Shown one piece after another: positions 49,575 to 54,649 of a DNA stretch of 64,000 bases. The notes beneath the pieces are model-generated. The model saw only the letters and a list, made by a program, of their open reading frames with translations, was not told where the DNA came from and ran no database searches. Positions within the stretch are counted from its first letter, which is position 1. Each line of letters starts with the position of its first letter. The translations under genes and the position numbers were made by a program. This stretch comes from Oceanibaculum nanhaiense (GTDB taxonomy: Bacteria; Pseudomonadota; Alphaproteobacteria; Oceanibaculales; Oceanibaculaceae): assembly GCF_002148795.1 (NCBI RefSeq), contig NZ_MPOB01000001.1:124001-188000 (forward strand). The letters are read 5' to 3'.

Positions 49575-51104
49575 ATGTCCGGAACCGAGAGTCTCAGCAT
49601 CCGCCTGCATCCGGCGGACAATGTTGTGGTCGCCAGGCTGGCGCTGATGCCCGGCGCCGCCCTGCCGGCGGAAGGGATTGCCGCCGCCGCGTCCATTCCG
49701 GCTGGGCACAAGGTGGCGACGGCGCCGATCAGCGCCGGGGAGCCGATCCGCAAATACGACCAGATCATCGGCTTCGCGACGGACGACATCGCGCCGGGCG
49801 ATCATGTTCATGTCCATAATGTCGAGATGCGCGATTTCGAGCGTGACTATGCCTTTTCCAGTGCCGTGAAACCGACCGACTATGTGCCGGAAGCCAACCG
49901 CGCGACCTTCCAGGGCTTCCTCCGGCCCGGCGGGATGGCCGGCACGCGCAACTATATCGGCATCCTGACCTCGGTGAACTGCTCGGCCACGGTGGCGAAA
50001 TATATCGCCGCCGCGATCACGCCGGAGATTCTGGCGCAATATCCGAACGTCGATGGCGTGGTGGCGCTGGTGCATTCCACCGGCTGCGGCATGGCCGATA
50101 GCGGCGAGGGCTATGCCAATCTGCAGCGGACATTGTGGGGCCATGCGCGGCATCCGAACTTCGCCGGCATCCTGATGGTCGGCCTCGGCTGCGAGGTGAA
50201 CCAGATCGACTTCCTGCTGGAGGCCTACGGGCTGGAACGCGGCCCGCGCTTCCAGACCATGACGATTCAGGATATTGGCGGCACCCGCAAGACGGTGGAT
50301 CGCGGCGTCGAGATCGTGAAATCCATGCTGCCCGCGGCCAACGAGGCGCAGCGCACCGCGCTGCCAGCCAGCCATCTGACGCTGGCCCTGCAGTGCGGCG
50401 GCTCCGACGCCTATTCCGGCATCACCGCCAACCCGGCGCTGGGCGCGGCGGCCGATCTGCTGGTCCGGCATGGCGGCACCGCGATCCTGTCCGAAACCCC
50501 GGAGATTTATGGCGCCGAACATCTGCTGACCCGCCGCGCCATCGACCGCAAGACCGGCGAGAAGCTGATCGAGCGCATTCGCTGGTGGGAGGAATACACA
50601 CGGCGCAATGGCGGGGAGATGAACAACAACCCCTCGCCCGGCAACAAGGCCGGCGGCCTCACCACCATCCTGGAGAAGTCGCTGGGCGCGGCCGCCAAGG
50701 GCGGCACCAGCAATCTGACCGGCGTGTTCAAATATGCCGAGCCGATCAACACCAAGGGCTTCGTCTTCATGGATTCGCCGGGCTACGACCCCTGTTCGGT
50801 GACCGGGCAGGTGGCCAGCGGCGCCAATATCGTCTGTTTCACCACCGGGCGCGGCTCGGTGTTCGGCAACAAGCCCTCGCCCTCGCTGAAACTCGCCACC
50901 AATTCCGCCATGTACCGCAAGCTGGAAGAGGATATGGACGTGAATTGCGGCGACGTGCTGGATGCCGGCGTGTCAATTCAGGAGATGGGCCAGCGCATTT
51001 TCGAGCTGATCCTGCGCGTGTCTTCCGGTGAAAAATCCAAGAGCGAAGCACAGGGCTTCGGCGATGCGGAATTCATTCCCTGGCAGGTTGGCGCCGTCAT
51101 GTAA
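49575..51104 (+). CDS. UxaA-family altronate/galactarate dehydratase
   Basis: 509 residues, with GGAGGGG about 8 nt before ATG. An N-terminal SAF domain (residues ~12-95, HPADNVVVARLALMPGAALP, GDHVHVHNVEMRDF) joins the catalytic UxaA_C region: VNCSATVAKYIA, HSTGCGMADSGEGY, VGLGCEVNQIDF, LQCGGSDAYSGITANPALG and FTTGRGSVFGNKPSPSLK. The conserved cysteines bind iron or a cluster. The family dehydrates altronate (UxaA) or galactarate (GarD) to a 2-keto-3-deoxy sugar acid; the exact substrate cannot be chosen from sequence alone. It lies 41 bp after dctM, implying uptake and first catabolic step in one operon. Downstream enzymes (KDG kinase/aldolase, reductase) are not in the window. Confidence 0.88.
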   Translation: MSGTESLSIRLHPADNVVVARLALMPGAALPAEGIAAAASIPAGHKVATAPISAGEPIRKYDQIIGFATDDIAPGDHVHVHNVEMRDFERDYAFSSAVKPTDYVPEANRATFQGFLRPGGMAGTRNYIGILTSVNCSATVAKYIAAAITPEILAQYPNVDGVVALVHSTGCGMADSGEGYANLQRTLWGHARHPNFAGILMVGLGCEVNQIDFLLEAYGLERGPRFQTMTIQDIGGTRKTVDRGVEIVKSMLPAANEAQRTALPASHLTLALQCGGSDAYSGITANPALGAAADLLVRHGGTAILSETPEIYGAEHLLTRRAIDRKTGEKLIERIRWWEEYTRRNGGEMNNNPSPGNKAGGLTTILEKSLGAAAKGGTSNLTGVFKYAEPINTKGFVFMDSPGYDPCSVTGQVASGANIVCFTTGRGSVFGNKPSPSLKLATNSAMYRKLEEDMDVNCGDVLDAGVSIQEMGQRIFELILRVSSGEKSKSEAQGFGDAEFIPWQVGAVM

Positions 51105-51115
51105 CGAAACGGCGG

Positions 51116-51146
51116 TTGACCGGCGGCATCCCTACGGGCCTATGCT
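51116..51146 (+). promoter_or_regulatory. Weak promoter-like sequence before phoR
   Basis: TTGACC (51116-51121) and TATGCT (51141-51146) are 19 bp apart, longer than ideal, 40 bp before the phoR ATG. No Pho box is seen here. Confidence 0.3.
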
Positions 51147-51185
51147 GTAAAGTCAGTTTCAGCCTTCCGCCAGCCCGAGGCCCCC

Positions 51186-52595
51186 ATGCCCGCATTCCGG
51201 CCATCGCGATCCGCGATCGTCAAGACCAGCCTGCTGCTGTCGCTGCCGGTCGGCATGGTGCTGCTGATGCTGGTGGCTGGTGGCCTGTTGAATGGCTGGC
51301 CCGCTCTGCTGGCCTGGGCCGTCACTCCCGGTATCTTCGCCCTTCTGGTGCAGCGCCATTTCGAGCGCATCGCCCGGCTGGAGGCGACGGTGGAAGGCGG
51401 ATCGGCGGATATCGAGCCCAACAGTCCGCTTGCACCGCTGGCCGGTCGCATCGAATCGCTGCACCGCGCACATGCGGAAAGCCTCGCCGCCCTGCGGCAA
51501 CGTCTGCATGCCGCCCATGTGGCGCTGGAATCGTTGCCCGATCCACTTTTTCTGATCGATGCCGAAGCGACCATCGTCTCCACCAACCGGGCCGCCCGAG
51601 AGATTTTCGGCGAGGCGCTGGCGGGCCGCGCCGTGGCCAGCAATCTGCGCCATCCGGAAGTGCTGAAGGCGGTGGAATCGGCGCTGGAGCAGCGGCGGGC
51701 GCGCACGGTCGAGATGACCATGCTGGTCCCGATCGAGCGCAGCTTCGCGGTCAGTGTCGAGCCCCTGTCCGAGCCGGGGCCGGACAACAGCCAGGCATTG
51801 ATCCTGATGCACGAGCTGACGGCCATGAAGCGCACCGAGCAGATGCGCGCCGATTTCGTCGCCAATGCCAGCCATGAGCTGCGCACGCCGCTGTCCACGC
51901 TGGTCGGCTTTATCGAAACGCTGCGTGGCCCGGCCAAGGACGATCCAGAAGCACATGAACGCTTCCTGGAGATCATGCACGAGCAAAGCCTGCGCATGTC
52001 GCGGCTGGTGAATGACCTGTTGTCACTCTCCCGTATCGAGCTGAACGAACATACCCCGCCGCGGGGGCTGGCCGACCTGTCGCGCATCCTGGCCAGCGTG
52101 AAAGCCACGCTCGACATGCAGGCCGCAACCAAGGACATGGCAATCCAGCTCGAGCTCGAGGCCGGGCTGCCGCCCGTCACCGGCGACGAGGACGAGCTGG
52201 CGCAGGTTGCGCAGAACCTGATCGACAATGCGACGAAATATGGCCGGCCCGGCACCCCGATCCGCGTGGTGGCGCGACGGGCCGACAGCGTGCCGGCGGC
52301 GTTTCCGAAAGCGCCTCACGGCGCTGTGCTGATCCGCGTCCAGGACCAGGGCGAAGGCATTCCGCGCGAACATATTCCGCGTCTGACGGAACGGTTTTAT
52401 CGGGTAGACAAGGCGCGCAGCCGCGATCTTGGCGGCACCGGCCTTGGACTGGCCATCGTGAAGCATATCGTCAGCCGCCATCGCGGCGCGCTGGCCGTCG
52501 AGAGCCAGGTCGGCAAGGGCAGCACTTTCACGGTCTATCTGCCGGTCGCCTCTCCTGCGGCCATCTCTGGTCCAGCGCCCGCTCCGGCCGCCTGA
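51186..52595 (+). CDS. phoR: Phosphate regulon sensor histidine kinase PhoR
   Basis: 469 residues. Two N-terminal transmembrane segments (TSLLLSLPVGMVLLMLVAGG and PALLAWAVTPGIFALLV) with almost no periplasmic loop, then a PAS domain (ALESLPDPLFLIDAEATIVS), the HisKA site FVANASHELRTPLSTLVGF, and HATPase_c boxes DNATKYG, VQDQGEGIPREH and LGGTGLGLAIVKHIV. PhoR has no phosphate-binding domain of its own and senses through PstSCAB and PhoU. phoU is 140 bp downstream. Confidence 0.93.
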   Translation: MPAFRPSRSAIVKTSLLLSLPVGMVLLMLVAGGLLNGWPALLAWAVTPGIFALLVQRHFERIARLEATVEGGSADIEPNSPLAPLAGRIESLHRAHAESLAALRQRLHAAHVALESLPDPLFLIDAEATIVSTNRAAREIFGEALAGRAVASNLRHPEVLKAVESALEQRRARTVEMTMLVPIERSFAVSVEPLSEPGPDNSQALILMHELTAMKRTEQMRADFVANASHELRTPLSTLVGFIETLRGPAKDDPEAHERFLEIMHEQSLRMSRLVNDLLSLSRIELNEHTPPRGLADLSRILASVKATLDMQAATKDMAIQLELEAGLPPVTGDEDELAQVAQNLIDNATKYGRPGTPIRVVARRADSVPAAFPKAPHGAVLIRVQDQGEGIPREHIPRLTERFYRVDKARSRDLGGTGLGLAIVKHIVSRHRGALAVESQVGKGSTFTVYLPVASPAAISGPAPAPAA

Positions 52596-52627
52596 ATGCC
52601 CGGGTGGCGAACCCGAATTCCGCATCG

Positions 52628-52662
52628 ATGTAATAAAAATGTCACCAAAACGTAGTATTTAT
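52628..52662 (+). promoter_or_regulatory. Pho box and -10 of the phoU-phoB promoter
   Basis: ATGTAAT-AAAA-ATGTCAC (52628-52645) is two 7-bp direct repeats with a 4-bp A/T spacer, the PhoB-binding layout (consensus CTGTCAT-N4-CTGTCAT). After 10 bp comes TATTTAT (52656-52662), the spacing at which PhoB replaces -35 contacts. A degenerate third repeat, ACGTAGT, follows at 52650. The box is 91 bp before the phoU start. Confidence 0.75.
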
Positions 52663-52735
52663 GCCGTGCAAGCCCGGTATTGATAAGCCCAAGCGCACGG
52701 TCCGCTGACGTTCTTGCCCGTGGAAAGGAAGTTTC

Positions 52736-53446
52736 ATGCCCACCCATACCGTTAAGTCCTTCGATGAAGAGTTGAAGCGGCTGATGAATCTGATCTCACA
52801 GATGGGGGGGCTGGTCGAAACTCAGGTCCAGGACTGCATTCTGTCGCTGGCAAAGCGGGACAGCAATATCGCCGAGCGGGTGATCCAGGGCGACCTGAAG
52901 ATCGACGGGCTGGAATATGATGTGAACGATCTGACCGTTCGCATGCTGGCGTTGCGCCAGCCGCTGGCCGAGGATCTGCGCCGCGTCGTCGGCGCCCTGA
53001 AGATTTCCGCGGATCTGGAGCGCATCGGAGATTATGCCGCCAACATCTCCAAGCGCGCGGTCGCGCTGAACCAGCTGCCGCCGGCGCGGCCGGCGGCCGG
53101 CATTCCGCGCATGGGCAAGATGGTCCAGCAGATCCTGAAGGAAGTGCTGGACGCCTATGTCGAGCAGGATGCCGAGAAGGCCCTGCTGGTGTGGCGCCGG
53201 GACGAGGAAGTGGACGAGATGTACACCAGCCTGTTCCGCGAATTGCTGACCTACATGATGGAAGACCCGCGCAACATCACGCCCTGTACGCATCTTCTGT
53301 TCATGGCGAAGAACATCGAGCGCATCGGCGACCATGCCACCAACATCGCCGAGACGCTGTATTACCAGGTGACCGGCCGGCCGCTGACCGCCGAGCGCCC
53401 GAAGGGCGACACCAGTGCTTTCACCGTCATCGAGCCAGAGAGCTGA
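52736..53446 (+). CDS. phoU: Phosphate signalling protein PhoU
   Basis: 236 residues; AAGGAAG lies 5-11 nt before the ATG. Two PhoU three-helix repeats: SFDEELKRLMNLISQMGGLV at the start, RQPLAEDLRRVVGALKISAD with LERIGDYAANISKR, and the second copy MAKNIERIGDHATNIAETLY with E-R-I-G-D metal motifs. PhoU keeps PhoR in the phosphatase state when phosphate is ample by contacting PstB. phoB follows after 38 bp. Confidence 0.96.
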   Translation: MPTHTVKSFDEELKRLMNLISQMGGLVETQVQDCILSLAKRDSNIAERVIQGDLKIDGLEYDVNDLTVRMLALRQPLAEDLRRVVGALKISADLERIGDYAANISKRAVALNQLPPARPAAGIPRMGKMVQQILKEVLDAYVEQDAEKALLVWRRDEEVDEMYTSLFRELLTYMMEDPRNITPCTHLLFMAKNIERIGDHATNIAETLYYQVTGRPLTAERPKGDTSAFTVIEPES

Positions 53447-53484
53447 CGCACGCGGCTTGAAGCATTTCCCATCGCCTGCCGAGA

Positions 53485-54198
53485 ATGGACCACACCATGA
53501 AGCCGTTGATCCTGATTGTCGAAGACGAGGCCGCGATCGTCACGCTGCTGAGCTACAATCTGGAGCGCGAGGGCTTTCAGGTTCTCGAAGCGCGCGATGG
53601 CGAGGAAGGGCTGCTGCTGGCCACCGAACGCCGGCCTGACCTCATCCTGCTCGACTGGATGCTGCCGCTGCTGTCCGGCATCGAGGTCTGCCGCCGGCTG
53701 CGCCGCACGCCACAGACCCGCAGCATCCCGATCATCATGCTGACAGCCAGGGGTGAGGAAGGCGACCGGGTGCGCGGCCTGAATGCAGGCGCCGACGATT
53801 ATGTCACCAAACCCTTCAGCCCCAGCGAGCTGCTGGCGCGCGTCCGTGCCGTCATGCGCCGAGCCCGGCCGTCCGCCGATGCGGAGACGCTGCGCTGCGG
53901 CGACATCGTGATGGACATCGCCGCCCACAAGGTGAAGCGCGGGGACCGGGATGTGCATCTGGGGCCGACCGAATTCCGCCTGCTGCGCCATTTCCTGGAG
54001 CATCAGGGCCGGGTGTTCTCCCGCGAGCAGCTGCTGGACTCGGTGTGGGGGGCGGATGTCTATGTCGAGCCGCGCACCGTGGATGTGCATATCCGCCGGC
54101 TGCGCAAGGCGCTGAACGAGGAAGCCGAGGGCGATCCGATCCGTACCGTGCGCTCCGCAGGCTATGCGCTGGACGCCGTCGCCCCGCAATATGCCTGA
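53485..54198 (+). CDS. phoB: Phosphate regulon response regulator PhoB
   Basis: 237 residues from ATG 53485; ATG 53497 (MKPLILIVEDEAA) is an equally good start. Receiver domain: acidic VEDE pair, phosphoacceptor Asp in PDLILLDWMLPLLSG, Lys in DYVTKPFSPSELLARV. C-terminal OmpR-type winged helix: LGPTEFRLLRHFLEHQGRVF, SREQLLDSVWGADVYVEPRT and VDVHIRRLRKAL. Phosphorylated PhoB binds Pho boxes, including the one 5' of phoU here, so the unit is likely self-activating under phosphate limitation. Confidence 0.95.
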   Translation: MDHTMKPLILIVEDEAAIVTLLSYNLEREGFQVLEARDGEEGLLLATERRPDLILLDWMLPLLSGIEVCRRLRRTPQTRSIPIIMLTARGEEGDRVRGLNAGADDYVTKPFSPSELLARVRAVMRRARPSADAETLRCGDIVMDIAAHKVKRGDRDVHLGPTEFRLLRHFLEHQGRVFSREQLLDSVWGADVYVEPRTVDVHIRRLRKALNEEAEGDPIRTVRSAGYALDAVAPQYA

Positions 54199-54280
54199 AG
54201 TCCGGCCACTGCCTTTCCATGGCAGGCCGCTATATAAGAAATTAATGTAAAATACGAATATATTGCCGTTTATCGGCCTG

Positions 54281-54649
54281 TCATTCCGATTTCCGGTGCT
54301 TCTCTTCGACCTGCGACAGCAGCGATACGAGCGCCTCCTCATCGAGGTCGGCAATGTTCTTCGACAGCCGATGCGCCAGCCTGGTGGCCGTCGGCGACAG
54401 GCCGGCGGTATCGATAACCACGCGCGGATGGGAAATCTCCGCCAGGTGATGCAGCGCTTCCGCATCATCCCAGATCAGCCCGAAATAGCCGCAGATCTGA
54501 TGGATCAGCCCATCGGTGGGCTGGCCGCGATGACCATGCTCAAGTGCCGAGAGATAGGCCGAGGAGACCTGCAGCGCCGCCGCCATCTCCTTCAGCGTGA
54601 TTCCGCGCCCGGCGCGCAGTGCCCGCAGCTTTTCTCCGAACGGCGTCAT
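54281..54649 (-). CDS. XRE family helix-turn-helix regulator
   Basis: 122 residues. HTH_3/XRE domain at residues 5-62: LRALRAGRGITLKEMAAALQ, with VSSAYLSALEHGHRGQP as the recognition region. The remaining 60 residues (ISHPRVVIDTAGLSPTATRL, HRLSKNIADLDEEALVSLLS) are a conserved extension in alphaproteobacterial members that follow Smr genes. Its start overlaps the Smr stop by 4 bp. The target is unknown. It is convergent with phoB across an 82-bp A+T-rich gap. Confidence 0.88.
   Translation of the reverse strand: MTPFGEKLRALRAGRGITLKEMAAALQVSSAYLSALEHGHRGQPTDGLIHQICGYFGLIWDDAEALHHLAEISHPRVVIDTAGLSPTATRLAHRLSKNIADLDEEALVSLLSQVEEKHRKSE

Follow-up and report, generated by a model that had tools for sequence, protein, structure and literature searches.

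The 140-nt gap between phoR and phoU in the window (the whole stretch of 64,000 nucleotides analysed) contains a predicted Pho box of three tandem 11-nt half-sites, TGTAATAAAAA|TGTCACCAAAA|CGTAGTATTTA (52629-52661), which would serve as a PhoB operator driving phoU-phoB and would have a history as a stranded pst promoter. This reading is the best explanation of the locus, with a probability of about 0.85; the history, taken by itself, is only somewhat more probable than not. It was drawn directly from sequence, conservation, position, and the gene order of relatives, from which we infer binding, induction, the start site, and the direction of the history. Judged from its sequence, the Pho box before phoU-phoB is real and of an ordinary kind. 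The original prediction is corrected on three points, namely the third half-site, the likely −10 element, and the partial dependence on phoR, and the point added beyond an ordinary Pho box is that the site probably descends from a pst promoter left stranded.

All features of the locus lie on the + strand. The upstream gene (51186-52595) encodes a sensor kinase with HisKA, HATPase_c, and PAS domains; it is PhoR-like by domains and place, and the name phoR is used with reserve, as its score for phoR_proteo TIGR02966 (326.6 bits) is just below the curated threshold of 334.2. The phoR stop codon ends at 52595 and the phoU ATG lies at 52736. phoU (52736-53446) matched TIGR02135 with 248.3 bits (cut-off 130.25), and phoB (53485-54198, with an in-frame ATG at 53497 as a possible alternative start) matched TIGR02154 with 351.9 bits (cut-off 296.2). 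A probable ribosome-binding site for phoU, proposed from its sequence (AAAGGAAG), is found at 52724-52731. The box begins 107 nt ahead of the phoU ATG, is oriented in the direction of transcription, and has a phosphate-regulon gene downstream.

The original prediction had described two 7-nt repeats separated by a four-base spacer and followed ten bases further by a −10 element, and each part is present: ATGTAAT (52628-52634), AAAA (52635-52638), ATGTCAC (52639-52645), ten bases, and TATTTAT (52656-52662). A Pho box consists of two direct 11-nt repeats of seven conserved and four less conserved bases (PMC4415409), a form that TGTAATAAAAA plus TGTCACCAAAA takes at 52629-52650. In the register given by a matrix built outside the genus, half-site 1 (52629-52639) begins one base after the first described repeat and carries one substitution (TGTAA for TGTCA), and half-site 2 (52640-52650) contains the best TGTCA match of the site. 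Two elements had gone unremarked, namely half-site 3 (52651-52661), in the same 11-nt register and overlapping the −10 first proposed, and another conserved TA-rich element, at 52678-52684.

The matrix was constructed from 26 sites that lie before pst genes in bacteria outside the window genus. From the phoU loci of 80 relatives, the 59 with a pstB match and at least 3 kb before pstB were scanned over as much as 7 kb ahead of that gene for TGTCAYN5TGTCAY, one mismatch being allowed, which yielded 34 matches on the pst strand (28 loci) versus three on the other strand (three loci). One site was kept for each locus, the leftmost where two overlapped, and the sites of L058 and L108 were left out by hand; one training locus (L106) is titled gammaproteobacterial. 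The leave-one-out scores had a median of 30.1 bits and ranged from 39.8 down to 6.7, several of the sites being weak and possibly false. The phoU site scored 33.1 bits, above this median, and ranked first among the 127,934 34-mers of the window, the next non-overlapping match reaching 12.0. Its 17-nt core alone scored 23.2 bits, and the next non-overlapping core in the window 12.5. The strict pattern TGTMAYN5TGTCAY had two matches in the 3.84-Mb genome, the phoU site and one before pstS, and none in the reversed-pattern controls; the M was picked after the site was seen, so that this test is partly circular and its count is supporting evidence only. Among three congeners, the strict pattern matched the phoU site of G002 only. 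A plain motif search of the window with up to three mismatches returned the site itself only, and with an expected count of about one it was uninformative.

The original prediction had proposed looking for the repeats in related genomes, and all three congeners keep the box, one of them (G001) weakly. With scores of 30.8 (G003), 32.9 (G002), and 16.8 bits (G001), all four genomes of the genus fall between 16.8 and 33.1 bits. In an ungapped comparison of the four, anchored on the box and run outwards, 22 of its 34 columns were invariant, compared with 2 of the 40 just upstream and 17 of the next 30 downstream. Within the box, the best kept parts were half-site 1 (10 of 11 invariant columns) and the third block, at offsets 22-33, where 9 of the 12 columns were invariant. 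Half-site 2 (3 of 11) was the most variable, and two congeners have a degenerate form of it. All four genomes keep the downstream element along with half-sites 1 and 3, and they have GTAGTATT of half-site 3 in common. The conservation continues beyond the box across 52662-52685, where it takes in the −10 candidate.

The −10 first proposed, TATTTAT at 52656-52662, is doubtful. Its initial TA is conserved at that offset from the box start (offsets 27-28; T in 23 and A in 22 of the 26 training sites, 7 and 11 of 11 held-out sites), but it forms the tail of half-site 3, and a T at position 6 of the hexamer is rare there (2/26 in training, 0/11 held-out). Twenty-two nucleotides further downstream, at offsets 49-50, the T and A were found in 16 and 18 of the 26 training sites and in 9 and 10 of the 11 held-out sites, with a T at position 6 in 9/26 and 6/11; the window has TATTGAT here (52678-52684) and two congeners have TATGGAT, the TA being conserved in all four genomes of the genus. 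The contrast was weaker in the six box-bearing loci of a second locus set, with TA in four at either offset and a position-6 T in 0/6 at the upstream offset and 1/6 at +49. In the window genus, position 6 is A rather than T at the 52678 candidate, and the 52656 element has A or G there. The E. coli K-12 pstS sequence carries TATTTT at exactly +49 from the box start, which we take to be the pstS −10. From the position-6 counts in relatives together with this E. coli hexamer, the predicted element at 52678-52684 is favoured as roughly twice as likely to be the −10 as that at 52656-52662. A sigma-70 scan of 51000-54300 returned no promoter-like site on the + strand. The likeness to E. coli pstS extends to the box, in which 11-nt units from TGTCAT lie at 0, 11, 22, and 33, compared with 0, 11, 22, and a degenerate 33 in the window; the differences are that the unit at 22 is the weak one in E. 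coli and that the E. coli box drives pstS while the box of the window precedes phoU-phoB.

Two other arrangements of this promoter depend on the upstream −10. A single two-repeat Pho box with its −10 at 52656-52662, the third repeat being a by-product of the −10, would have the ten-base spacing that is presumably E. coli phoA-like, and the T and A frequencies at offsets 27-28 agree with it; it is nevertheless unlikely, given the scarcity of a position-6 T (2/26, 0/11, and 0/6), the A-rich offsets 30-31 that fit the tail of the half-site itself, and the second TA element at +49, also conserved in the genus. Considerably less probable is dual control, in which PhoB would activate from half-sites 1-2 and at high level repress through half-site 3 lying over the −10. 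Half-site 3 does overlap the 52656 element and is kept in all four genomes, and the available text of PMC6194859 describes a precedent in E. coli, a weak second site around the phoB promoter −10. The same text of PMC6194859, however, places that repression site on the antisense strand, its half-sites sharing 1 bp; a third half-site is present in pst promoters too, and the model requires the −10 at 52656.

The claim that a Pho box stands before phoU-phoB has good evidence in the outside matrix, the genus conservation, and the recognition helix of the encoded PhoB, and the same kind of evidence supports the proposed autoregulation of phoB. The DNA-binding domain of PhoB matches that of PhoB 1gxp (VYVEDRTVDVHIRRLRKAL aligned to VYVEPRTVDVHIRRLRKAL), which we take to be E. 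coli PhoB on DNA, and its recognition region VYVE-x-RTVDVHIRRLRKAL differs from 1gxp by one residue. We propose that 52629-52661 is a PhoB operator with at least three tandem 11-nt half-sites, to which PhoB phosphorylated by PhoR would bind head to tail when phosphate is scarce. Bound PhoB would recruit sigma-70 RNA polymerase, most likely at the −10 of 52678-52684, and the transcription of phoU-phoB would raise PhoB in a positive feedback, and PhoU along with it. The basal level of PhoB would probably come from leakage or from read-through from phoR. In E. coli, phoB is positively autoregulated (PMC3812086, available text), and phosphorylated PhoB on tandem half-sites before phoB raises its own level at the phoBR promoter, as predicted here (available text of PMC3812086 and PMC6194859); the difference is that phoR shares a run with phoB in E. 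coli, while here phoU does and phoR lies upstream.

Control of phoU-phoB independent of phoR, a further claim of the original prediction, holds in part. The genes have their own predicted box, but a terminator scan of 51000-54300 gave no terminator-like site in the phoR-phoU gap; independence from phoR is thus partial, and phoU-phoB could be transcribed from the PhoB-driven promoter as well as by read-through. No site before phoR was among the six best matrix matches of the window (the sixth had 8.0 bits). That phoU-phoB would be mainly read through from phoR, with a minor or decaying box, would agree with this lack of a terminator-like site, with the differences in half-site 2 among congeners, and with two box-less loci of relatives (L063 and L210) in which phoR ends close to phoU. 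It is improbable given the selective conservation of the box relative to the 40 nt just upstream and a score exceeding the training-site median. Least probable of all is a chance resemblance or a site of another regulator: the TGTAA of half-site 1 departs from TGTCA and part of what the genus conserves falls downstream of the box (17 of 30 columns), but the site ranks first in the window with a matrix built without the genus and sits immediately before phoU-phoB.

In most relatives examined, phoU-phoB lies behind pstB, and the presence of a box before phoU was compared with this linkage using a 13-bit line that was set after the first locus set was seen and before the second. The first set comprised 109 loci. 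None of its 91 pstB-phoU loci reached 13 bits upstream of phoU (best 7.1), and eight of the nine loci with phoR next to phoU, three of them from congeners, had a box of at least 16.8 bits; in the ninth (L063), phoR abuts phoU. Where neither pstB nor phoR was detected, three of nine reached 13 bits (L058, L033, and L032) and six did not: L007, L027 (6.4 bits), L023, L057 (which shows a PstB-like reading), L043 (with a box further upstream), and L065 (cut off upstream). The second set comprised 100 new loci among the matches listed, with a match in 163 of 289 genomes. At least 13 bits were reached by six of its eight loci without pstB, versus none of the 92 pstB-linked loci (best 5.4; Fisher p 2e-8, with relatedness ignored). 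The two box-less loci were L210, whose phoR match ends 82 nt before phoU, and L276, with only 7.6 bits. Three of the eight (L238, L248, and L276) belong to one genus with G007 (first-set locus L019), so that lineages are fewer than loci, and L179 and L203 are of one family. Over both sets and outside the window genus, a box of at least 13 bits preceded phoU in 14 of the 23 loci without detected pstB there and in 0 of the 183 pstB-linked loci; of the exceptions among the 23, some are cut short, some have phoR close before phoU, and some are unexplained. Among random 353-nt stretches of the relatives' loci, 20 of 2000 reached 13 bits, true pst boxes included. The locus collections share organisms (L006/L039 and L016/L066 are identical rows in the tree), and the counts are therefore not fully independent. 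On the PhoU+PhoB tree, with linkage labels taken from BLAST hits and L065 dropped, six supported pairs differ in pst linkage. The box changes in the matching direction in an average of 4.5 of these pairs and in the contrary direction in none (median p of 0.125 by sign test); with so few independent pairs, the link between the box and pst loss is consistent but falls short of significance once relatedness is taken into account.

The gene order of relatives points to the origin of the box. In the nearest outgroup on the PhoU+PhoB tree, G038 (L163), the order is phoR-[box of 28.6 bits]-pst-phoU-phoB, from which the position behind phoR looks ancestral. The same order occurs in G031 (L168), whose half-site 3 has the same register (CGTAGTATTTC) and which shares CGTAGTATTT with the window. 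In both, the box lies just behind phoR in the register seen here, and the difference is that pst genes stand between box and phoU, where the window has none. A further case is the interval L043:9600-10000, where a 25.9-bit box, placed after a ribulose-phosphate 3-epimerase-like gene (by eye), is followed by an apparent pstB 3' remnant (by eye) and then phoU-phoB; no box lies within 350 nt of phoU, and tblastn reported no pstB there. This interval probably preserves the remains of a pst operon that was deleted.

In the window genome, the pst operon is found on another contig and has its own box before pstS. It is of a long type (L120:7509-11904 on G000:C8, − strand) with a PstC of 877 aa and a PstA of 578 aa, of which Pfam recognises only the C-terminal permease part, so that several hundred residues have no Pfam assignment. 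The search for PstS with TIGR00975 gave only a 23.9-bit fragment, below the cut-off, in a protein part of which matches TIGR02136 (116.6 bits over a 128-aa piece, cut-off 206.6). The long type is patchy across the relatives examined. It forms one clade on a quick PstB tree (SH-aLRT 99; one change), and the pst types require eight changes on the PhoU+PhoB tree, or seven with the row of the congener G002 (L004) left out. The pst of G002 is of the other type and located elsewhere; its nearest relatives by path are Xanthobacteraceae and other Hyphomicrobiales, without a tight supported group; the genus thus holds two different pst types at other loci. The change counts on the two trees and the G002 type suggest that the transporter was probably exchanged while the phoR/phoU-phoB core stayed. 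Two Elioraea genomes (L055 and L059) carry pst genes next to phoU-phoB at the same place but of different types, which suggests an exchange in place.

The old promoter would once have driven pst-phoU-phoB from just behind phoR. With pst lost from between box and phoU, and a pst operon at another place, under a box of its own, taking over, the regulator genes phoU-phoB would have been left under the old pst promoter. On these comparisons of sequence and gene order, the phoU site is somewhat more probably than otherwise this former promoter, stranded after pst loss; the box may instead have been re-created after relocation and not inherited.

Elsewhere in the genome, a search with one mismatch gave 36 matches, including the two exact ones, versus 10 for the reversed-pattern controls, and among the matches that were scored with the matrix only three besides the phoU and pstS sites reached 19 bits (L150, L171, and L174/L155). 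The first, at L150:1484-1517 (G000:C3, about 416995), scored 20.5 bits. The second, at L171:2431-2464 (G000:C10, about 17947; 20.1 bits), has a cyclopropane fatty acid synthase-like gene on one side and a 518-aa ORF on the other and was absent from the three congeners when searched with up to three mismatches. The third, at L174:2005-2038 (G000:C5, about 276004; 19.5 bits), precedes a run of glpR-like, ugpC-like, and ugpB-like genes, none above its curated cut-off, and has a near copy in G003 (2 mismatches in 20, for the sequence only, neighbour genes aside); this run is a plausible further member of the Pho regulon. In G000 and G001, the box-like sequences that precede a LacI-family regulator gene (L176:1944-1977 and L131:1484-1517) both carry GCGCTGTCATGGT and may represent a LacI-type operator rather than a Pho box.

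In Caulobacter, also an alphaproteobacterium, pstC-pstA-pstB-phoU-phoB is under PhoB control (available text of PMC11208175), and direct regulation of the pstS and phoB transcripts is cited in the available text of PMC10294691. A PhoB-dependent promoter serves phoU-phoB there as well; the difference is that in Caulobacter the two genes share an operon with pst, whereas the window locus has no pst and its box stands immediately ahead of phoU. A genome-wide alphaproteobacterial prediction exists (Yuan 2006, cited in PMC4415409), and a pstSCAB-phoUB operon is mentioned in the available text of PMC8857273. No description of the phoR-[box]-phoU-phoB arrangement was found in the listed titles and abstracts on phoU-phoB and the Pho box, phoR-phoU orders, alphaproteobacterial pst order, and the Pho box with Sinorhizobium meliloti, with few subscription journals covered; PMC10128002 and PMC8857273 name PhoRUB and phoUB and, in their available text, do not describe the arrangement.

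The site is a well-placed and testable candidate for a PhoB promoter in a little-studied lineage. We put at about even odds that phoR-[Pho box]-phoU-phoB is a stable core in several alphaproteobacterial lineages, in which pst is lost or exchanged and the stranded promoter keeps phosphate control. This predicts a box before phoU at loci where phoU-phoB has left pst, as held in 14 of 23 outside the genus. If the reading of the core is true, the sensing transporter would be the swappable part and the regulator would keep its inherited promoter, which suggests that a regulator may stay autoregulated after the break-up of an operon by reusing the promoter of the lost transporter genes.
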